64,000 nt of DNA from Calycina herbarum (Eukaryota > Ascomycota > Leotiomycetes > Helotiales > Pezizellaceae), in contig LLEY01000065.1 in assembly GCA_001414485.1 (NCBI GenBank), positions 186,001 through 250,000 on the forward strand. Direction: 5' to 3'. Below the pieces are notes generated by a model. That model made no database searches. It was not told where the DNA came from and saw nothing but the letters and a program-made list of their open reading frames with translations. Shown here piece after piece: positions 39,597 to 64,000 of the stretch (its first letter is position 1; each line of letters begins with the position of its first letter). The position numbers and the translations under genes were made by a program.

Positions 39597-41906
39597 ACGT
39601 GGTTTATCAGGGCCCGGATCATATCAGGAACCGGATCAATTTTAGCGAATTCCCAACCCCCTTCCTTTACAACGCGTTTTTTCTGCTATATATTATGTCA
39701 GTTATTCTATAAGAATCAAAAATCATTCTAGCTATCGAGGCTATTCGAACATCTAAAAAGCTAAGCCGTCGGAAGGCTGCAAAGCTCTACAGAGTGTCCT
39801 TTTCTATACTAAACGGTAGAATAAACGGCTGAACTACTCTCCCTAAGCGACGGATAGTAAACGTCAAATTGTCTAAGCTAGAAGAGGAAGTAATTGTTCG
39901 GAATATACTTGATCTAGATTCGAGAGGGTTTGCACCCCGGCTAGGTAGCGTAGAAGATATAGCGAATTATATACTCGAATCGCGAGGGGGAAAACGCGTC
40001 GGCAAGCTCTAGGCACATTGATTTATACAACGATAACCAGCCCTTAAGACGCGTTTTAATCGCGTTTATGATTTCTAAAGGGCCTTATGCGAAGATTCTA
40101 AGCTAATTAGCTCGTGGTTCCGACTGGTTGAAAATATAAGGGTAAAATACAGTGTTTTAGACTACGACTTTTATAACTTCGACAAAACCAGGTTTATAAT
40201 AGGTGTAATTTGCCTTATAATAGTTATAATCTATATAGATCGACGTAGCAGAGGTAAGGCAGTTCAGCTAGGGAATCGGGAATAGGCTATAGCGATTGCT
40301 TATATTAATAGTAAAGGCTAGAGTGTCCCTCTATTTCTAGTGGTTTAGTGTTACGAATCACGTTATACGTGGTAAGTAGTCTAGACGGCGCTCTGATAGA
40401 ATAAGGCACGATATCTAGGAAATAGAAGGTAATACCGGAGAGAATTAGTAATATAAAGGCATTTAGGTATTCCAGGATCTTACTATTAAATAACCGTTGG
40501 AAGTCACGTAATAGATCCCCTTAGATCCTATAAGAGATCTATAGAGATCTAGGGATCTAGGCTTATATAAGGATCTAGATAGTACGAAGGGTTCTATATA
40601 TACTAGTATATCTACTACCTAGATAGGAGCTTTATACTTAACTTTAGTTATTAATCTTATTATCTTATTTAATATCTTTAATATAAGTAACAAGTTTACT
40701 TCTAAGTAAATAACCCGGCGTATCTGTACTTCTTACCTATATACTAACCTTCGAGACTTAATCACCTTTGTTTAGTTCGTATAGAGTTTCGTTATATTTA
40801 GAGTAAGAACTACCTTTTAAATTAGTATATAGACGGCGGCCTTCTACTCGACTAGGTTATTAAACCGACAAGTAACAGATAGATAAATAATAAGACAGGT
40901 CTAGAATAGCTGAAACACTTTGATAAATATACTACTACTCGTATAAAGAGTCTATATTAAATACTAGTATTAGATAGGTATAAGAGTTACGAATCGGCCG
41001 AGTTCTAAGAGTACTATAAGATATATAATATTATAACTCTTAGACTACCTTATTCGTTCTATCTAACCTAGTTACTTAATATTAGATGCTTTAGTATATT
41101 AAAGCAGGTATATAGTTGATAGATTAAGACGTTTATTAAAGCTTATATTAACTATATTACGAAGGTAGAGTTCTTTCTAGTCTTTATAGTAGTATATAAG
41201 GAATCTATAATAGCCTAAAGCGCTTAGGCTGGATTCTATAGAGCTGGCTTAGTGCTCTTTAACCTATAAGTAGTGCTTTTAAAGCTTAATATAAAGTTAC
41301 GAACTCTAACTTCTTCTAGACCCTCTACTGCTAATACTAATCCTTAGGTCTCCTAGACCTCTTCTAATCTAACTAAAGCTCTTTTATAAATAACACTTGT
41401 TTAAAATCGAATTACCTGTTATTAAAGGAGCTTGCTAACTCTACTCTTCGAGACAGTTGCTATATTAGCTAAGAGTATAGAGTAAATAGCTTATAAGATA
41501 ACTCTTCTATCTACTAAGGTACGTACTCTTTAAGCAACTAACGAAGCCTTAAGTAAACGCTGTAGAGCTAAAAAGGCTCGTGTCTATTAAGAGGGTATAC
41601 TTATAGTAGAGGATATATAGGATATTATAGCCTAGAAGGATATAGATAAGCAGATACGATGCGACGTATATACAGCGAGAGGTAGTTGTAAAGAGGGTTA
41701 ACTATCTAGGTAATACTATAGAATCTATAGAAAAGCTAGTTATAATATATAAACTTGTTAAGAGGCTGTAGATATATCTAGTTCCTCGGATTCCGAGTAG
41801 TTTTAGTTAATTTAATATATTATAGTTGATTTATTAATATTCTAAGTTTAATACTAAGGAAAACTAATCCGGTTTCTAATATAATCCGGGTTCTAATAAA
41901 CCACGT
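39597..41906 (+). mobile_element. Fot1/pogo-type DNA transposon, RIP-degraded, with a nested solo LTR
   Basis: The termini are inverted repeats of about 50 bp beginning ACGTGGTTTATCAGGGCCCG on the left. The right copy differs mainly by C-to-T/G-to-A changes. TA target duplications lie at 39595-39596 and 41907-41908. The plus strand keeps a recognisable DDE_1 (Fot1-like) transposase: a helix-turn-helix start (SKKLSRRKAAKLYRVS), LKTRFNRVYDF, the catalytic-region remnant YDFYNFDKTRF (the family usually has FDETGF, so Glu to Lys fits G-to-A), GLE-stop-LKHFDKY and YRAGLVLFNL. Many TAG/TAA codons interrupt it. Without the nested LTR the element is about 1.86 kb, close to the size of Fot1-class elements. 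Confidence 0.9.
40349..40796. mobile_element. Solo LTR nested in the Fot1-like element
   Basis: The 448-bp insert starts TGTTACGAATCACG and ends CGTTATA. It is flanked by a 5-bp duplication TTTAG at 40344-40348 and 40797-40801. Removing the insert and one TTTAG restores continuous transposase coding from PLFLVV straight into the downstream GGLL and TSNR segments. TG at the 5' end, near-CA at the 3' end and a 5-bp duplication are features of LTR retrotransposons. The family (gypsy or copia) cannot be told. It is TA-rich like its host element. Confidence 0.8.
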
Positions 41907-41908
41907 TA

Positions 41909-42168
41909 GAATAATTATATTTATTCTTTAAGACTATTTAGAAAAATCTAGAATTTTAGTTATAGTTCTTTTAACATTTTTAGAATAATTAAATTTCTTT
42001 TATTATTAAAAAGGCTTGAACTTTCTAGTAATACCAACTTCTTTGTTTTTATTCTATTACTCTAATTATTTAGAATATTAAAGTCAAAAAAGAAGAGATA
42101 AGACAACTTTACTTTATATTCTATGTTTTGAAATATAAATAGTCTAGTAAGTTCTTTTGAATTTCTTT
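41909..42168. other. AT-rich spacer between transposons
   Basis: About 260 bp, strongly AT-rich with no ORF, between the Fot1-like element and the hAT-like MITE. Probably older RIP-degraded repeat. It does not contain the missing 5' end of the tannase gene. Confidence 0.5.
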
Positions 42169-45509: not shown

Positions 45510-46065
45510 ATGCATTTCTCCAGCTCTCTTTTCGCCATCGTCCTTTCCCTCACTTCGACCGTCATTTGCGCGCCAATTGAAGCTCGTGCGTTGACTGTCA
45601 AGCCATACAATGATTTCTCTGTTTCTGGAGGTGTTGGGGGAAAAGCATTAGCCGAGGTCAACGCAAATTTCCCTGTGCGTATTCTAAACACCAAACCCCT
45701 CTACCAACCATCACTAATCCATGCTATAGGTTGGCACCGACCTCAAAGCTGTTTCTGCTGCAGACCTCAAGATTATCTCGGATGCCGCTCAAGTCAGTGA
45801 GCAAGCGGAAGTCGCAACTGGAGGTTTTAACGATGCTGTCGCTGCAGCAAGTGGAACTGCCGCAGCGGCCCTACAAGTCGGGAAGATAAAGAACAAGGTG
45901 TTGAAGTTGCAAACCGACGTTTTGCGTCTACAGATCCAGGCTGCGCAAGGAAAGACTGGATTGGATGCCCAAATCGCTACCCAACAGAAGAAATTGGATA
46001 CCAATGTTGCGTTGGATGTCAAGTCGGCTGGAGAGGCCAGTACTGCAATTGATTTTGCTGGTTAA
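45510..46065 (+). CDS. Small secreted protein, 166 aa, two exons
   Basis: Exon 1 is 45510-45674 and exon 2 is 45730-46065. The 55-nt intron runs from GTGCGT to TATAG, and spliced coding is 501 nt. The N-terminus MHFSSSLFAIVLSLTSTVIC with a following Ala-Pro is a good signal peptide. The mature part reads LTVKPYNDFSVSGGVGGKAL, then ISDAAQVSEQAEVATGGFND, LQVGKIKNKVLKLQTDVLRL and KKLDTNVALDVKSAGEA, a helical Ala/Lys/Asp-rich pattern without cysteines. I recognise this as the widespread ascomycete 'small secreted protein' type with a KPYxxF...ALAEV start and a KIKNKVLKL core. It probably acts outside the cell; its function is not established. It is an intact gene between damaged neighbours. Confidence 0.8.
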
Positions 46066-46236: not shown

Positions 46237-49200
46237 CTATCTGAGCTCAGCTCGCCGTCTCCCATACAATATATAACAGAAAGCCAAACAGCAGATCAAG
46301 GTCAAAGGTGTTGTGTTCTCGAAAATTATGAATAGGAGAAGACCAAGCAGGAATTCAAGGTCAGGAGCTGCGAGACGATGGATCCATGATGCGCTAAATG
46401 CTCTTTGATCGCCTCCGACGTGGTATCCAGCGGGGGAAGAAGTCACATCAATCATATTGGGAGGCAAATTGCGGATCTCACGATGCCTCCAACCTCTATC
46501 GATGTAGATTCTTCTCTTTTGCCCTATTTCTCCCGCCCGCCAACGGTTATATTCCTGTTCATCGTAATCAGAAGACCAGCTTCTGCTTCTACCTCTGCGA
46601 CTCCTGCTCCTGCTTCTGCCCCTTCTCCGACCTTGATTTACACTGCTTCCTCTCACTCCCAATCTCTCGTGATCCTTTCTTTCTCTCAATCTCTCGTACT
46701 CCCTCGTCGCCTCCAATTTCTCATACTCTCTTCTTGCCTTCAGTCTCTCCAACTCCTTTGTCGCTTTCAATCTCTCGATCTCCCTTGTTGCTGCCAATCT
46801 ATCGTAACCACTTGCCAAATTCACCAACTCTTTCTTGTGTTCTATCCTCTCACTTCCCTCATTTCGGTCCCTCACCCTACGTGGTGCTCTGGGAACACAT
46901 ATCCCTGATGCGGCACTTGTTACAGAGCGAAGAGAAGCTGATTCAGACGCTGCCGGACTTCCCGTAAGATTATCTGTTACCAATCCGCCCGCTTGAAAGA
47001 ATCCGGCTATCCTATCCTCACTTGATTGGCTTACTGCAACAAAACTAGTCCACTTCCCGGCTATTGACCACTTCAACCCAATTCGCTCCGCTTCTTCCTC
47101 GATTTCCGCGTCAGATAACAGCTCTTCGGAACTTGCTCCCGAATATTTCCACCTCTGACCAGCCTCAAGATCAAGTATTGCAGCTTTGGCAGCCAGGTGA
47201 TAGATAGTAAATTGCTGAGTATAAGCATACCTAACTTTTATGTTCTTATAAATTACATCTCCTGAAACCGTAGTGGCCTTGAGGGTGACAACGCGTGGGG
47301 GGTTGATGCTTTCCTCAACAGAAGAAAGACTGTAGACCATTGGGAAGGATGCAAAGTATGAAGTCGACAAGGTGCTTGGATATATGCTGTTTGGTTGGAC
47401 TTAGATACAGCTTGTGGTTCAGGTATCAAAGGCGTAGCCCCCAGAACAACTTCAAAGTTCCATGGTGAACATCCGCCCTCGAGAATTCTGTCAACTTTTG
47501 CCAATAACTGTTCCGAGTTTTCGAAAGAAATTGACTCCCCAAATCCTCCGTATATTTTCTCAGCTCCTTCAACCAGTTTACAATCGCCCCTCTCTACAAA
47601 AGCGAGAGGAAAGAAACGAAGGGTGCCTTTGGAGTCTCTCACGGCCTTTGCAACAAAGTCATCCATTTCTGTGGTATTTCCGAACTCTCCATCAGCTAAA
47701 AGAATAACTTGAGCCGTAGTATTTATCCGTTGCACTACAATGTATTTCAGAACTGGGAGCAGCCTTTTGTCACCCAGATCGCTTTTCAAAGTAGAAACAT
47801 ACTGTTTGGCCGTAGTCATGTTCTCCAAAGAGTACTTTTTCGACATTCTCCATAGTGAGGTAAGCGTAGACCCAAAAGAATATATATTGAACTGACAATT
47901 CTGAGGAAGTCTGGCCAGGAAAAGTTTCATCACTTCTTGAATATTCCTCGTTTTACTTCTTAACATCATTTTCGATCTCTCAACGAGGAAAACGATCTCT
48001 CCTGCAGAGTTTTGGGTCGTAAAACTGTCTGGGAATAGCTCCCGGGGTCATATGTTTAGCATGATTGCCGGCCCACGAGATTGGTCGAACGAAGCATCCA
48101 GAAGAGCATGCGAAATCGTATTCCAGTTAAGAGTGAGAACGAAGTCCTTTTCCAATGTTGGTTTCTGGTCGAAAAAGCTTGCGTGAGCTTTTTCCAGGTC
48201 GTATTCCGCCGCCTCGATGGAAAATGCGAGATCGCTACACGTGTTTGAGAGCCCGACTTCTGAAGAGATACGATGGGTGTGACTCTCAATTTTGTTGATC
48301 AAAACGATTGAGACGATTTTGATGTTGATCTTCAAATTTCCTTCGATATGCATGGGAAGTGATCCGCTATTGTCGTTGTCGGGACGTTCTGGGCTTGCGG
48401 CATACTCATATTTCGGTACTACAGACGTCGGAATGGTAAATATGGCCGCGTCAAAGTTTGTTTTTAGCTGGCCTACATAAACAATTTCAACGACAACTGT
48501 GCTATCCTGGGCAACATTACCCAGCAGAATGTTGAATATTTCTGGAGAGTCCTCTTCAAAGAGTGCAGCAACACGCTCCTCTGCAATGGCTTCTCTATAT
48601 TCCGCTTTTGCCTCCGATTTTGGCTTAATCTTGCCGAATAGTCTATCGTCACCTACGGTGCACTGAAAGGATATGAGTGCGACATCATCGTAGAGCGGGA
48701 AAGTATAGTTCGCTTCCCTGATGCGACACAATGAGAGATTCCGGAACGTCTGTCAGAGTGTGGTTCGGTAAGCCGTTGAATTGATCTCGACGTCAACTGA
48801 AACATCCTCGATTGGTAAACAGCACAATTCCTCGTCCCCGCCAAAGTGAGGGAACTGGGAAAAGGTTTCATCGATACTGCCATTATCGCTTGGGGTGTGA
48901 TCATGTTCTCCTTTTACAATCTCCTCGGTAGCATGTTCTGCCACGCTCATATGGTAATTGGAGTAAACAGCTGCGCAGTTGAAATTTCCCATTATTTTGA
49001 GACCACTCGTTTGTTCATCTATGAGTTTGTGGGTTAGTGGACTACTGCTCGATGTTTTGTGTAAATAGGAAGCGATGCTGCTTACGAGAAATTATTCCCG
49101 TGTTTATATTAGCCGTAGCACTCCCCCCAACATTTAAGCTTCCTGTTGGCGCACCAACTTGTGCGGTATAACCGCCCTCGGCAGGAGTATCAGAGTTCAT
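46237..49200 (-). pseudogene. VIT and von Willebrand factor A domain protein with an N-terminal amyloid-type motif; two TGA codons and a frameshift
   Basis: Exon 1 (49200-49086) encodes MNSDTPAEGG followed by the motif QVGAPTGSLNVGGSATAN. It joins exon 2 at 48970 through a 115-nt intron (GTAAGC, branch ACTAAC, GCGCAG). A VIT domain follows (REANYTFPLYDDVALISFQC, FNILLGNVAQDSTVVVEIVY). The vWA domain starts at EIVFLVERSKMM, where the usual metal-site DxSxS is lost, and continues with FNIYSFGSTLTSLW. The C-terminal region has HLAAKAAILDLEAG, a charged coiled coil, an Arg/Ser-rich stretch and one or two membrane segments (LEFLLGLLLFIIF; LTLICCLAFCYIL). Coding is in frame across TGA at 48753-48755 and TGA at 48048-48050 (both possible CGA-to-TGA), then shifts frame near 47315. 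As it stands no full product can be made. Confidence 0.75.
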
Positions 49201-49736
49201 TTCTACGAACTCAGTGCGAACGATGAAAAGATTACGGCGAAAGAAAGTTAATCAGGCTACGATTCTTTCCAACTGCCAATCAATTTCTTCATAAATTGAG
49301 CTGAAATGCAGTCACCTCGGTGTGTCAAATTCGTTGAGTCTCAGTGGTTCGTTGAACTTCTGGGTGCATGATAATGTAAGCCCCCACGCCCACCTCTTCG
49401 TTAAACCATACCTGAATTAGATTGCTCCGCAACAATGTGCAAGGTGATTGGTATTCCACCCCACCATCCTAGGAGTTGTAAGGACCGTGGCACTCAACTC
49501 TGCACGAATACAGCGCCTTGCATGTGCTCCTCACCATGATGCAATAAGAATGACAGGTTATGAGTTAAACGCTACAGTGGTGAGAATTTGCGATCTCCTA
49601 CGAATTTCAGGACGTAAAAGTGGGCCCAGAAGCGAAAAATGAAATCTATGGTGTCAACAAAAGCTTAGATTTACATAGCTGGTGATTTCAAAAATAAGGC
49701 TCTGCGCTGCTAAAAATATCCCTCATCTGAACTCAT
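49201..49736. other. Intergenic region
   Basis: About 540 bp upstream of the VIT/vWA gene and downstream of the small motif gene. It presumably contains the VIT/vWA promoter. No recognisable coding frame or defined site. Confidence 0.4.
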
Positions 49737-50184
49737 TCATTCGCGACCATCCGCATCCCCAGCACGCCCGCGCTCAGCGTCCGTAGAACGAGCAGTATTC
49801 GCAGTATTAACCACGCCCTCTACTCCCAATTCTTCCGCTTCCACTTCTCCAGTCTTGTCACGAATGGTCTGCGATAGTCCCAAATCCTCCCCTTCGTAAG
49901 AATTTCCTATGTTTGCTTTGCCCTTAATCCCCTTCCCAATCTTGATACTTCCAGTCTGTGCCGCGATGGTTTGAGAGTTGTGTTGGGTTGGACCCCATCG
50001 AGAGTCGAGACGTCAATAGTTATTTCGAATCTAGTAAAGGGTCACCAAAAGATAGTTTAAAGGAGAAATGTACCTGTTGTATGGCTTTATTTCGTTCGGG
50101 TTCTTTTTGCTTCTCTCTTTCCCGCCTCTCGTCCAATGCCTTCTGTGCTGACAGTGTCATGACATTTGATTGCGTTGATGACAT
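49737..50184 (-). CDS. Small protein with two amyloid-type (HET-s-like) repeat motifs, 109 aa
   Basis: Exon 1 (50184-50074) encodes a charged helical N-terminus (MSSTQSNVMTLSAQKALDER, then a Lys/Glu/Arg run). It joins exon 2 (49955-49737) across a 118-nt intron (CAG|GTACAT to GGCACAG) in phase. At the junction the product reads QQTGSIKIGKGIKGKANIG, followed about 12 residues later by QTIRDKTGEVEAEELGVEG. These two units share a T-x-x-x-x-TG-x-[IV] pattern with each other. They also share it with the motif in the VIT/vWA first exon and the C-terminus of the gene at 50720. GKANIGNSYEG also resembles the end of HET-s repeat 2. The tail is acidic/polar. No domain other than the repeats; it could act as an adaptor or nucleus. 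The splice call is inferred. Confidence 0.55.
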
Positions 50185-50719
50185 GACGGAGTGATAATTT
50201 AGGCTTGAATGGTCTTGAAAATGGTTAAATTGTTTTCCAACGATATAAGATGGCTTTGGGCATGATGTTGCTGCCTTCTTGATTGACCCCGCTTATTAAC
50301 TACGATCAGCTCGGTTAAATTCAGTTTTGATAAATTGGTCCAGGAAGCTTTAGAGAAACACATGCTTTGGAATTCATCAGTAATACCGAGTTCTAAAATA
50401 GAGATTTCTTTATTTTTGGTAATAGGGAGAAGATAATAGCTCGTGGAGGTTATTCCATAGAACGTAGCCACGTGATACGACCGATAAACTTTAAATTTTA
50501 ATTAAGTTAGTCAAGCTATGATCTTAGTATCAATTTATTTAGTAAATTAACCAGATTTCTTTTTTCCCACTGTAGCAGCTTTGAAGGGTCACGTGCTGCA
50601 TATTATTCGTGACGTGGCTGTACATGGGGCGATCGTTCAACCAGGCTGGCTACACCTTAATCCAAGCAACCGCAGACCAATTTTACTCCTCCAATCTTTC
50701 AAGAGGAGTGCATGATTGT
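50185..50719. promoter_or_regulatory. Divergent promoter region of two motif-bearing genes, with two CACGTG sites
   Basis: 535 bp separate the starts of the minus-strand small repeat gene (50184) and the plus-strand effector-like gene (50720). Perfect CACGTG hexamers lie at 50469-50474 and 50590-50595. CACGTG is the classic bHLH binding site. A bHLH gene lies 2 kb to the right, but any link is inference. Co-expression of the divergent pair would be expected from the layout. Confidence 0.4.
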
Positions 50720-51790
50720 ATGCCAGAAAATATGGTACTGCTCTGACATATTTCAACAACGTTCACTAGTTACACTCATTGATGTATTCGTGGACAGGAC
50801 GGGGTCTCAGCCGCAGCATCTATCACCGCCCTTATTGGCACAGCAATCACATTGATACAACAAATCTAAAATGCACGAGAACATATGAAAAAAGTACCAA
50901 AGACACTCGAAAACGGCTCAAAACAACTCGAAGCTCTTGTTCAGTCACTCAACCTCGTAAAGGAGGAGGAAAGACTGTAGACACTTACTGTGAAACAGCA
51001 AGTGAGTGTTATCAAACAGATTTCCGAAGAGCTGAGCCAGGCTTTCGGGAGAATTCGAGTAGGACAATCGAAAAATTTAATCCGACGTATCTTTCACGCT
51101 CTCACATCCGCTGAGAAAGACGACAAAGAACTTGCAGAATCGACAGAGCCAGGGATGAACTTGGCCTGCGTATCTCTGTGACCTTGGTTGGGTTGGTGGT
51201 AAATCTAAAATATGGATTTCAGGTGGTATACGACGTTCTCAAAGAAACAAACCAAAAGGTAACTAAAATCTTGGGAAAAGATTTGGTTCTCGCGAATAGA
51301 CTTGCGGATCGATCGGAGACCGGTAATTTAACTCTTGGATCAATGGATGACATGCTGAATTGCGATTTAGCGGGGACGATGGCCCTCGATACAGCTGATA
51401 TCGAGGCACTTGGATTAACTGATCCCAAAATTACAGCGGTAACAAATTGTTATTCCTTGCTACATGAAAAATAGGACTAAGGTTTAACCAGTCACGGATC
51501 CCTATGTCGCAGCTCCGTATTGATAGACAGACGGGTGATATTAAGGTTGGAGGGAATGCTGATGATGCTGCAAACACCGTAATATCAGCAAAACAGGCCC
51601 AGGTTTGTAAAAGGATTTTGTTTGCCATTATTTCAGGTTACAATCGGTTGAGGCTCATAATGTCTAACTTGCATCCCAGAAAGGACCAACCCGCGGCACT
51701 TCCGCTACTATCGCCGGAAAGACCGGAAATATTGATATTGGGGCAGATGCGAAGGGGAGTCTAAACACCGGGATATCTACGTACTCTTGA
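50720..51790 (+). pseudogene. Fungal death-effector-like gene (SesA/HeLo-type N-domain) with two C-terminal amyloid-type repeats; two stops and a frameshift
   Basis: Inferred exons are 50720-50734 (MPENM), 50798-51438, 51492-51602 and 51680-51790, with introns of 63, 53 and 77 nt. The N-domain is a helical bundle starting GVSAAASITALIGTAITL and including KKVPKTLENGSKQLEALVQS and DELGLRISVTLVGLVVNL. It resembles the N-terminal domains of fungal NLR/STAND and HET-type proteins (SesA/HeLo-like). The last two exons each carry one motif, RIDRQTGDIKVGGNADD and ATIAGKTGNIDIGADAKG, the two-repeat layout of HET-s-type prion-forming regions. Damage: TAA at 50867-50869, TAG at 50978-50980 (CAG-to-TAG type) and a frame change at about 51139. 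The motif exons are intact. As sequenced, a full-length product is not expected. Confidence 0.7.
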
Positions 51791-61180: not shown

Positions 61181-63456
61181 TGTAGGAGGCAGGGTTAAAC
61201 CGGATATCAGCGGGATAGTGGGATACGGGATTTAGATTATCCGATTCCGGAACAGCACAAAAGAGAATTTTGAACAAACGTTGATACACCACGTTTGATG
61301 CCACCAACGAATATCCAAGTGGTTGTCAATAGTGGAGGGATGGGATAATATGACTATTCGTGTAAGGAGGTAGCAGCTTACGGTGGTAAGTTGCTGCCAC
61401 CTAGCATTTAAATCAGGTTATCCCTCCCCTCGACATTCTGTATGCATCATTCCAAGTGTGTATTTTACCATACCAATCTTCCAACCATATTCGTCGCCGC
61501 TGGTATTGTCCCAAAGGCTCTCGATCAAGTCGCTCACACAGAATGGAACTTTCAAAATTCATCTGGCCATTCAACCGTGTGATGGGGCGAGGACGAGGGA
61601 GGCTGATGCAATCGCACAAGCCCCTTCGTTGCGCGTATAAGCAATCCATCCCGCATTGTGGCCCTTTCATTTTTGTAAGCAGTTTCCTCCCCAACACCGG
61701 GTTCATTCTCTCGAAGTCCGTTTCTTCAGCAATCCGCGTTCTTGTAGAATGTCGCTTATTGTCCTGTCGGCCCCTGCTGTGGGCTCAAGAGGAATTATTT
61801 TTGGGGGGACGCTCGGCAAGAGAGGTATCTGGGTATCGGGATTGTTGTATTAGTGTAAAATCGGCGGAGCATCGAGCTAAAAAGGGTTGGATGATTATAG
61901 ATTCATGTCGAGAAGATCTTGTATGGCCGGTGATTCTCCTGCTTGTTGGGTCTCCTATTCTGCATGTTATTTGAATCCTCTTTTCCACGTTACGAATGCC
62001 TACCTTCAATTGTGGTGCGCAATCACCCCAAGCATCTTTCCAAAAGCATCCAGACCTTGGTTGTTTGGAATGTGCCGAGGTCGTTCTGCCTCTGCTGACC
62101 TTGTCAGTGGTAGCCATGGCGTTTTAAGACAGTTGGGTCGAGATTTTGTGGTTGGATCGGTAGGAAGAGGGAAGACATTTTAGTAGCCACAATACAGGTA
62201 TCTTATCTGATATTCTGCGTTCGAATCTTGCGGGGAGCTCGGAGTCCAGAATACTCGTGGTTGTCGGTCGATGTAGTCTTTGCCGTGGGCTTGGTCTGCA
62301 GCTTCATCAGTGGCATACCTGTGTTGTGGTGACTCTAGAGGACTCTAAAGGGCGATAGAACCGCTTGCCATCAAAATAGTTAGACTCGATTATCGCAAGG
62401 CTGTAATTTACAGCCTGTCGGAGGTCGGACTTTACGCCTTGTGTTATGGCTCTACTCGCTATAGCTGCTTCCCGCCCCCCTTCCCCCGTTTTACGTTCTA
62501 TTTAAGACCTTATCAGGAAATTATGGCCAGTCAAATTTGTAGTGTATTTTGCCATTTCACTGTATTCTGTCATTTCACCTCGCCGACTTTGATGCCCAGC
62601 CTTGCCACACTACACAAGCTTAGCCACTTTGGGTTCATGCTGCTATCCTTGCAAGTCTTCAAGTTCCTAGTAAGCAGCGGGCCTCCAAAAGCAAAGATTC
62701 TCTTCTGGGCTATTTAGTTAGCAAGATCATAGAGCCTATTCTGCGTTGTTAATTTTGACCCCTAATTTCTCTGCATATTTGCAAGTTCAGTTGTTCGCTT
62801 TGCGCTCTCGCGTAAACCTTGCACTTTCCCAATTAGGCTTCATTCACCAAATATCGCACAATCATTCCCATATTTCTCCCAATAGGTCGCTGGTAGTGGT
62901 ATTGGTTAGTTTTATGCAGCTGTGCTATCAGCACTATTACCCATTTATCTACAGTTCGATTTACTTTTTAGTTATTAGAAGCACATTGCCTTAAGATATG
63001 CGGTTTAAAAATGTCTTTGAAGAATGGTACCTGGTTCTCAAAATGTAGCCTGACTCTTTATAGATTAAGGAAGTAACTTAAGGACTTTTTCTAAGAGATG
63101 AAGGCACTTAAGGGGGTAAGTAAGATAGTAGCTGTGAAATTAGTCGAGGAGTCAAGCCAGAGAGAGCCAATTCCTCTTTTTTGGTCCTGGAATGCATGCA
63201 GCTTGTAGTTCAGCGGTATCAGGTCGGAATCGAGTATGTCCGTGCTGTACGGTGGGGAAAAATTCTCCCACTGCTCTCGTCAATTTTCGCCGCGACTCTG
63301 TTCCTAATTGCAAGCCCAATCTCTCCTTCGTGCAACCGCCATTTCTGCCTTACGGTACCATAATTTTCGCTCTTTCTATTGCTTACACGCGAAATCCGAA
63401 GTCCCCTGCATCATTTCTCGCAGTTTTCCTTGCGCGTCGCTCGACTTTGCTTGAAA
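61181..63456. repeat. Right arm of the inverted segmental duplication
   Basis: Reverse-complement relative of 24897-27540, with landmarks in mirrored order. Clear matches include the GGTGGCAGCAACTTAC block (about 61390), the SHTEWNFQNSSG frame (about 61530-61560), and the minus-strand GLDAF-containing frame near 62060. They also include the SRVNLALSQ frame (about 62810) and the flank GAGTATGTCCGTGCTGTACG just upstream of the caspase-like gene (about 63231-63250), matched in the left arm near 25080-25100. Identity looks moderate, with many small indels, so the duplication is not recent. No intact ORF other than the caspase-like gene. Confidence 0.6.
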
Positions 63457-64000
63457 ATGGACAGCATCGCAGCTGGAAGTTCTCAAAGCCAGGGGGAGGA
63501 GGTGACCTGTCTCAAAGACGAAATCGTGAGGCTTCAAGCCGAGTTGAAAAAGAAGAATTCGACCGACAATGGAGGCCCGGAGAAAAGAGTATATCGAGAG
63601 GTTCGCGTGCTCATCGCAAAGTGGGAGTTTGGCGATATTGATGTCGATGAGGAGATCAACGAGCTAAACCATGTTTTTACGAGAGATTGGGGTTTCGATG
63701 TCCAATATATCACCATTTGTGATGATGATTCGGCGGAAGATGTAGCGGAAAAGGTGGAGAAAAAGGTGGAAGGCCACCAGTCTTCCGATATCCTCTGGAT
63801 ATACTATTATGCTGGTCATGGGATATTAACGGAGGATGATAACAAGACACTGCTGTGGTGCCCGTAAGTCAGAGAAATTCCAAACATTGAAAGGATGGCC
63901 AACTAATTTCGATGAAAGAACAATAGATGACGACTTCCCCGAGATATCCAGCATACCGGTCCAGAAAATCTTCGAAAATTTGCCCTCGGATGCCATCCTC
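63457..64000 (+). CDS. Caspase-like (peptidase C14 type) protein, 3' end beyond window
   Basis: ATG at 63457 begins MDSIAAGSSQSQGEEVTCLK, then a coiled coil (DEIVRLQAELKKKN) and the caspase-like core up to the catalytic-His segment DILWIYYYAGHG. Exon 1 ends at 63863 (donor GTAAGT). The 55-nt intron has branch CCAACTAAT, and exon 2 begins at 63919 and reads PTIDDDFPEISSIPVQKIFE to the window edge. The intron sits at the same place as in the copy at 24089-24896, with the same branch sequence, so these are true paralogues. The Cys motif would lie beyond the window. The start is supported by alignment with MDQTPQE in the other copy. Confidence 0.75.

Follow-up and report, generated by a model that had tools for sequence, protein, structure and literature searches.

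A motif shared by three neighbouring genes of Calycina herbarum: a putative decayed amyloid-type locus with a VIT/vWA partner

Introduction

In fungal amyloid signalling, the receptor side is an NLR in the available parts of the works describing it (e.g., PMC9815663, PMC5485727), and a gene cluster of Calycina herbarum raises the question of whether the seeding motif can be carried by another kind of protein. The initial annotation of the window, the whole 64-kb stretch of DNA analysed here, recognised five short segments of one amyloid-type motif in three adjacent genes: one at the N-terminus of a VIT/vWA gene, two in a small gene and two at the C-terminus of a SesA/HeLo-like gene. On balance, and with modest confidence, the cluster is best explained as a decayed fungal cell-death locus of the amyloid (HET-s-like) type, whose motif is divergent and whose partner is a VIT/vWA protein rather than an NLR. 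A broader proposal, which we regard as possible rather than probable, is that it represents a class of fungal amyloid signalosome in which an MLKL/SesA-type death effector is fired by a VIT/vWA protein with a membrane tail, rather than by an NLR, through an N-terminal amyloid seed whose motif family is distinct from HRAM, PP, sigma and PUASM. If the VIT/vWA partner is true, an amyloid seed can be placed on another sensor scaffold, fungal VIT/vWA proteins are tied to cell death and one motif family is added. A search covering part of the literature returned no work joining the VIT domain with an amyloid motif, or with amyloid and HeLo in fungi, nor any joining inter-alpha-trypsin with heterokaryon incompatibility, and in the available part of PMC12881547 vWA appears only as a domain within an NLR cartoon.

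The features of the locus are as follows (ranks are those of the profile scan described in the next section).

46237..49018, minus strand: broken remainder of the VIT/vWA gene, with VIT and vWA domains, a charged stretch and a hydrophobic tail at the C-terminus; from Pfam and alignment with P0027
49019..49085, minus strand: 67-nt intron of consensus pattern (GTAAGC ... CTAAC ... TAG), leading in frame from motif exon to VIT exon
49086..49200, minus strand: 5' exon of the VIT/vWA gene, ATG at 49200, one motif copy QVGAPTGSLNVGGSATANINTGII at 49161-49090 (rank 3)
49737..50184, minus strand: small gene with motif copies, inferred exons 50184-50074 and 49955-49737, 118-nt GT-AG intron
49970-49899 (scan), minus strand: small gene copy 1, clear (rank 4)
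about 49868-49794, minus strand: small gene copy 2, weak, its alignment requiring an insertion
50732..51790, plus strand: SesA/HeLo/MLKL-like effector gene, broken; from P0005 homology and weak Pfam matches; inferred exons 50732-50734, 50798-51322, 51371-51438, 51492-51602 and 51680-51790
51323..51370, plus strand: probable intron within the effector domain (GTAATT...TTTAG)
51516..51587, plus strand: effector repeat r1 RIDRQTGDIKVGGNADDAANTVIS (rank 1)
51707..51778, plus strand: effector repeat r2 TIAGKTGNIDIGADAKGSLNTGIS, alone on the last exon (rank 2)

A motif common to three genes

The scan profile was built from the two repeats of P0005 alone, an intact metagenomic orthologue of the effector, and was run ungapped over 279 kb of the Calycina herbarum genome in six frames (554,734 positions). 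The four highest-scoring positions were effector r1 (39.1 bits), effector r2 (38.7), the VIT exon (22.4) and the small gene (18.9), against a best background of 14.9 bits. The chance of such scores, fitted on 150 Markov sequences of 64 kb each, was 0.0023 for the VIT exon and 0.011 for the small gene with this profile, and 0.0007 and 7e-6, respectively, with a four-repeat effector profile. In addition, the regular expression TG-x-[ILV]-x-[ILVA]-G matches the window five times in six frames (mean 0.8 and maximum 2 in 60 simulations). One of these matches, TGNLTLG at 51319, was discounted: most of it belongs to what is probably a retained intron in the effector, seen as a 13-residue insert with respect to P0005. 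In a comparison of the repeats at the DNA level, only r2 versus the small gene beat all 200 shuffles, and narrowly.

Judged from the sequence, the motif common to the three neighbouring genes is therefore real, as had been proposed. All five segments are present and four of them are strong; the fifth, small gene copy 2, does not appear among the listed top matches of the ungapped scans. Of the conserved T[IV] said to precede the motif, that of small gene copy 1 would be intronic under the splicing assumed in the earlier description.

The effector gene

P0005 (284 aa) aligns with the window effector at 58%, covering 99% of the query, and both C-terminal repeats are kept in it. The window gene itself has two in-frame stops (50867-50869 and 50978-50980) and one frame break near 51140. 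Its Pfam matches to PF17111, SesA and MLKL_N are weak, and in P0005 none of the three reaches its gathering score (MLKL_N 14.9, SesA 14.2 and PF17111 13.9 bits); SesA is the commonest, sub-threshold match in the effector family, reaching E 0.1 or lower in 8 of 11 relatives, with 2.2e-4 as the best value. When the P0005 model was compared by Foldseek, MLKL executioner domains had the top probability (1.00), with a TM of 0.67 by target and an E of 0.11 (rank 2 by E), and in a second structure list MLKL was again at the top (Z 12.2, rmsd 2.7, 120 aligned), yet tied with unrelated bundles. The HET-s HeLo chain was absent from the best 50 entries of either list, and when the effector family was searched by sequence against the PDB, four matches came up (E 0.02-0.94), none of them credible. 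These concordant, individually weak matches point, if faintly, to a SesA/HeLo/MLKL-type effector on the plus strand, and the two repeats at its C-terminus agree with the initial annotation.

The VIT/vWA gene and its motif exon

Both domains of the VIT/vWA gene exceed the Pfam cut-off (VIT, E 8.1e-24, 84.4 bits; VWA_3, E 4.5e-16, 59.7 bits). Its closest relative among those listed is P0027, which is 47% identical over 692 columns; a 52-sequence tree places the two as sisters with a support of 1.0, with the window gene on a long branch. Their C-terminal tails share 61.5% over 26 aa, and a tail of this kind was found only in P0027 among the 14 entries listed. In the window gene the vWA metal-site motif is altered to ERSKMM (DRSGSM in P0001, P0002 and P0027), and its frame is damaged by two in-frame stops, at 48755-48753 and 48050-48048, and by one frame break near 47380. 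This is the same number of stops and frame breaks as in the effector, a degree of damage on which the initial annotation had laid no stress.

The single motif copy of this gene, set against r1 and r2 of the effector, reproduces the one-versus-two layout that had been described. The exon that bears it can be joined to the VIT/vWA frame by an in-frame consensus intron, as proposed. One of only three occurrences of the strict intron pattern in both strands of the 64-kb window lies directly after the motif exon; this pattern was formulated after the intron had been seen, and a looser one occurs nine times. The position and frame of this intron argue against an unlikely alternative that nevertheless deserves weight, in which the effector, perhaps with the small gene, makes up an amyloid-type pair, the motif upstream of VIT is a stray duplicate exon from the same decaying cluster that only seems spliceable, and the adjoining VIT/vWA gene is unrelated. 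In favour of a stray exon, the small gene is evidence of motif copies spreading within the cluster, and the motif, predicted at the N-termini of VIT/vWA relatives, was found in the annotated N-terminus of none of the 120 listed, an outcome that amounts to half of the refutation set out in the initial annotation; 11 of the 120 start within the VIT domain or shortly ahead of it, too late to be informative. Likewise, P0027 begins at exactly the methionine just downstream of the putative exon junction, a start that also makes it uninformative on the motif exon.

The second VIT exon opens with a stretch containing 'TSGLKIM' that may be a weak second copy of the motif. It scores 7.6-14.0 bits where listed and takes fifth place in the window under two of the six profiles, and it was not counted because it is below the best background of the 279 kb (14.6).

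NLR genes in the genome

No NACHT or NB-ARC match was found within the 64-kb window, in agreement with a receptor-like partner other than an NLR; the initial interpretation as a whole is partly upheld. The nearest NACHT matches on the same contig, C342:174467 and C342:309307, are weak. Genome-wide there are at least 57 NACHT and at least 24 NB-ARC matches, and for known families the available part of PMC9815663 raises the suspicion that unlinked genes signal to each other, so that the true receptor of the effector could be an unlinked NLR and the local cluster a fragment. We consider this improbable: in the whole 68.8-Mb genome, a query with the effector C-terminus retrieved, at E up to 10, the two exons from which it came and, beyond the effector itself, the small gene alone (E 0.037), with no further motif copy, the sensitivity of this search being limited because three candidates were scored. 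A genome match of the small gene, in C34 (E 0.09), is an ORF without the motif.

Charge pairing and motif class

Between paired repeats, charges are opposite at all eight doubly charged positions and alike at none (two in the effector, three in P0005 and three in the small gene), a count over three repeat pairs of which those of the effector and P0005 are homologous. In r1 and r2 the opposite charges are at positions 10 and 16, and the same positions carry opposite charges between the repeats of P0005. Charge anticorrelation between repeats has been described for HRAM motifs (PMC4518210, in the part available). With G19 required, however, the window segments and P0005 have at best two or three of the six strict HRAM features (G19, hydrophobic residues at 5, 8, 10, 16 and 18, and K/R at 15). 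No Pfam family, the HET-s prion-domain model included, matches the small gene or the effector C-terminus at E up to 5, which for that model is a weak test, since only 38 of 155 HRAM proteins match it according to the same portion of PMC4518210. The cores of PP/RHIM (GxQxG), sigma (GxGxQF and GGTQN) and PUASM (FxGxGxQxxGxGxF), as given in the accessible parts of PMC9815663, PMC5485727 and PMC3321046, match no segment. Because these cores and most strict HRAM positions failed, 'HET-s-like' applies to the layout and the charge pairing of the cluster, not to membership of the family.

The same failures would fit a motif with a shared binding role unrelated to amyloid, or one that is duplicated sequence and has no common function. 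This is very improbable, in view of the two C-terminal copies on a SesA/MLKL-like protein with one N-terminal copy next door, as amyloid signalling predicts, and of the conserved positions of the opposite charges.

Proposed mechanism

In the decayed amyloid-type locus that we favour, the plus-strand gene would have encoded a helical-bundle effector of the SesA/HeLo/MLKL type, whose two C-terminal repeats of 21-24 residues would form two stacked rungs. The small gene would have borne one clear motif copy, perhaps two, and the 5' exon of the divergent VIT/vWA gene a single one. The VIT/vWA protein may sit on the membrane, given its hydrophobic C-terminal tail; its clustering would allow the N-terminal motif to form a template, which would convert the two effector repeats, so that the helical bundle attacks membranes. 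Amyloid folding, templating and the role of the VIT/vWA protein as receptor are all inferred. The VIT/vWA gene and the effector are both broken in the Calycina herbarum genome, and the locus is therefore probably inactive.

Comparison with known systems

The cluster resembles HET-S/NWD2 and other HRAM systems in its adjacent genes, with two C-terminal repeats on one side and one N-terminal copy on the other, in its probable helical-bundle effector and in the charge complementarity between repeats. It differs from HET-S/NWD2 in having a VIT/vWA partner instead of an NLR, and from HRAM in the T-G-x-I-x-I-G and N-T-G of its motif, although a distant Fusarium homologue, P0015, is nearer to HRAM, with segments that have four and three of the six features.

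The sigma cluster of Nectria haematococca (sesA, sesB and het-eN) is also composed of three clustered genes with one common motif, one of them SesA-type, and its receptor motif lay behind a 5' intron overlooked in annotation (PMC3321046, in the part available), as the putative receptor-side motif would in Calycina herbarum. The VIT exon, with GGSATANINT, even slightly resembles the sigma submotif B GGTQNINT; however, the segments have no sigma A or B core, and the window has no NLR match and no lipase family among the five families found in 29 ORFs. As for PP/RHIM systems (HELLP, SBP and PNT1), they share the hydrophobic-x-hydrophobic-G core beside an MLKL-like effector, whereas neither GxQxG nor [IV]Q[IV]G is present in any window segment.

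In bacterial vWA-MoxR ternary conflict systems, too, vWA proteins belong to immunity-like complexes (PMC7159879 and PMC8195603, in the portions available). The terms 'VIT domain' and 'amyloid' do not occur in the former, nor 'VIT' in the latter. In contrast to them, the window has no AAA family among the five found in 29 ORFs.

Finally, the VIT/vWA gene is like those of other fungi (Lophium, Mytilinidion, Cenococcum and others) in its VIT and vWA domains, both above the Pfam cut-off, and unlike them in its extra 5' motif exon, hydrophobic tail, long branch and altered metal site. Its sister, P0027, matches a bacterial sortase-target model of NCBIfam below the cut-off of that model.

Gene models and decay of the locus

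C342, the contig that carries the locus, is 325 kb long and belongs to a fungal assembly of 68.8 Mb in 379 contigs. The locus consists of a VIT/vWA gene, a small neighbouring gene and a SesA/HeLo/MLKL-like effector gene ending in two repeats (r1 and r2):

49200, minus strand: ATG of the VIT/vWA gene, with G at -3
49200-49086, minus strand: VIT/vWA exon 1, carrying the motif
49085-49019, minus strand: VIT/vWA intron of 67 nt (GTAAGC, CTAAC, TAG), followed by the VIT and vWA frames
48755-48753 and 48050-48048, minus strand: in-frame stops of the VIT/vWA gene, with a frame break near 47380
50184-49737, minus strand: small gene, predicted model with a 118-nt GT-AG intron and an in-frame junction
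50732-51790, plus strand: effector, five predicted exons, with r1 and r2 on separate exons

Both VIT and VWA_3 exceed the Pfam cut-offs in the VIT/vWA gene, and the effector is broken by two in-frame stops and one frame break; relatives of the broken genes include intact ones. That the VIT/vWA gene and the effector have both decayed is consistent with a pair that fell out of use jointly, or it could instead reflect decay of the region.

A motif shared by neighbouring genes

The initial annotation had aligned five segments of the three genes on one amyloid-type motif (TG-x-[IL/V]-x-[IV]-G, then N-T/I-G). A regular expression matched five times in the six frames of the window, against a simulated mean of 0.8 and a maximum of 2 (60 simulations); one of these matches lies in a probable intron and was discounted. 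A cleaner test was a profile built only from the two repeats of P0005, an intact metagenomic effector orthologue from outside the window. Over 554,734 positions in 279 kb of genome, it ranked r1, r2, the VIT exon and copy 1 of the small gene first (39.1, 38.7, 22.4 and 18.9 bits; next position, 14.9). The shared motif largely stands. For the VIT exon, a Markov null gave 0.0023 per 64 kb with this profile and 0.0007 with a four-repeat profile. Because the null maxima over 150 runs reached 21.5 and 21.3, respectively, the VIT match taken alone is good, not overwhelming, and it gains weight from its position directly beside the effector. In a protein search of the whole genome, the effector C-terminus retrieved its own two exons, the small gene (E 0.037) and nothing else; the reverse search with the small gene found r2 at E 0.099, alongside an unrelated ORF at 0.09, and the VIT exon matched only itself.

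Relation to known amyloid motifs

None of the segments contains the core patterns given for PP, sigma or PUASM, and they show only 2-3 of the six strict HRAM features, so the motif was filed in none of these families. Its likeness to an HRAM pair lies in the arrangement and the pairing of its copies, to which extent it is HET-s-like, and it is possibly a divergent HRAM branch. Across three pairs of repeats (window effector, P0005 and small gene), wherever both members carry a charge the signs differ, at 8 of 8 positions, and they agree at none. These eight are not independent of one another, the window effector and P0005 being homologous; the small gene's three charge pairs say little because its copies have opposite net charges (+4, -4). 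Charge anticorrelation between HRAM repeats is reported by Daskalov and colleagues (PMC4518210), whose list includes both recurrent effector pairs, at 7 and 13, in a numbering chosen here (G of the r2 NTG is 19); position 19 of r1 is V, not G. Residues 210-281 of P0015, an effector relative from Fusarium oxysporum, hold C-terminal segments closer to HRAM than those of the window, which may reflect motif replacement or divergence within one effector family.

The VIT/vWA gene as a proposed partner

A strict intron pattern, composed after the VIT intron had been seen, occurs three times in 2 x 64 kb (nine times in a looser form), and one occurrence starts right where the motif exon ends and keeps the reading frame. 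This consensus-type intron speaks for the motif proposed at the VIT/vWA N-terminus; against it, none of the 120 VIT relatives listed (of 1,519 matched) has the motif in its annotated N-terminus, where the top score is 9.8 bits. PP and RHIM cores are likewise absent from these 120 N-termini, and 11 of the 120 begin within the VIT domain or immediately ahead of it and are thus uninformative on the motif. There is a precedent in the sigma cluster, where an unannotated 5' intron caused the receptor's motif to be missed (PMC3321046).

With 47% identity over 692 columns, the metagenomic protein P0027 is the sister of the window VIT/vWA protein (support 1.0) in a tree that combined 50 of the 120 listed relatives with the window protein and its own-genome paralogue. 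It starts at a Met matching residue 48 of the window model. Introns are often missed in metagenomic gene calls, so P0027 neither confirms nor refutes the motif exon; alternatively, translation ancestrally began at this Met, and the exon is a later addition. The metal-site motif DRSGSM is kept in P0027, whose hydrophobic tail resembles that of the window protein; a strongly hydrophobic stretch within the last 200 residues occurs in 5 of 107 relatives of at least 800 aa, P0027 included.

For work on sequence, the part of the reading that concerns the effector is good. A role of the VIT/vWA protein as receptor is plausible, with a single broken locus as its basis. The remnant of an amyloid-type cell-death locus is the best explanation and somewhat the likelier one, the tie of MLKL with unrelated bundles in the structure list counting slightly against it.

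A second VIT gene of the genome (G000:C188:16816-17157; L003 4973-8449, minus strand; open 1158-aa frame) is a distant paralogue without the motif.

NLR genes and surroundings

The absence of an NLR from the window was borne out: no NACHT or NB-ARC was found at E up to 0.01 in a Pfam scan of 29 of the 40 ORFs of at least 150 aa, the other 11 being three VIT/vWA pieces, scanned separately, and eight overlapping frames that were left out. At least 57 NACHT and at least 24 NB-ARC matches occur genome-wide, none inside the window; on its contig the nearest, both to NACHT and both weak, lie at C342:174467 and C342:309307. Elsewhere (G000:C50:90526-91653), a NACHT match comes immediately after a SesA match and in-frame stops interrupt both; this locus is another decayed gene of cell-death type in the genome.

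Among the matches listed, the nearest named VIT relatives are from Lophium, Mytilinidion and Cenococcum. The block 40001-42000 is AT-rich (GC 0.319 vs 0.35-0.49 in the remaining 2-kb blocks of the window). Beside the VIT gene, 45511-46065 (plus strand) encodes a small protein with a signal-peptide-like start, its ORF split by a probable intron, and an ORF at 63364-63864 (plus strand), about 12 kb from the effector, has a Peptidase_C14 (caspase-like) match above the Pfam cut-off (E 3.7e-5).
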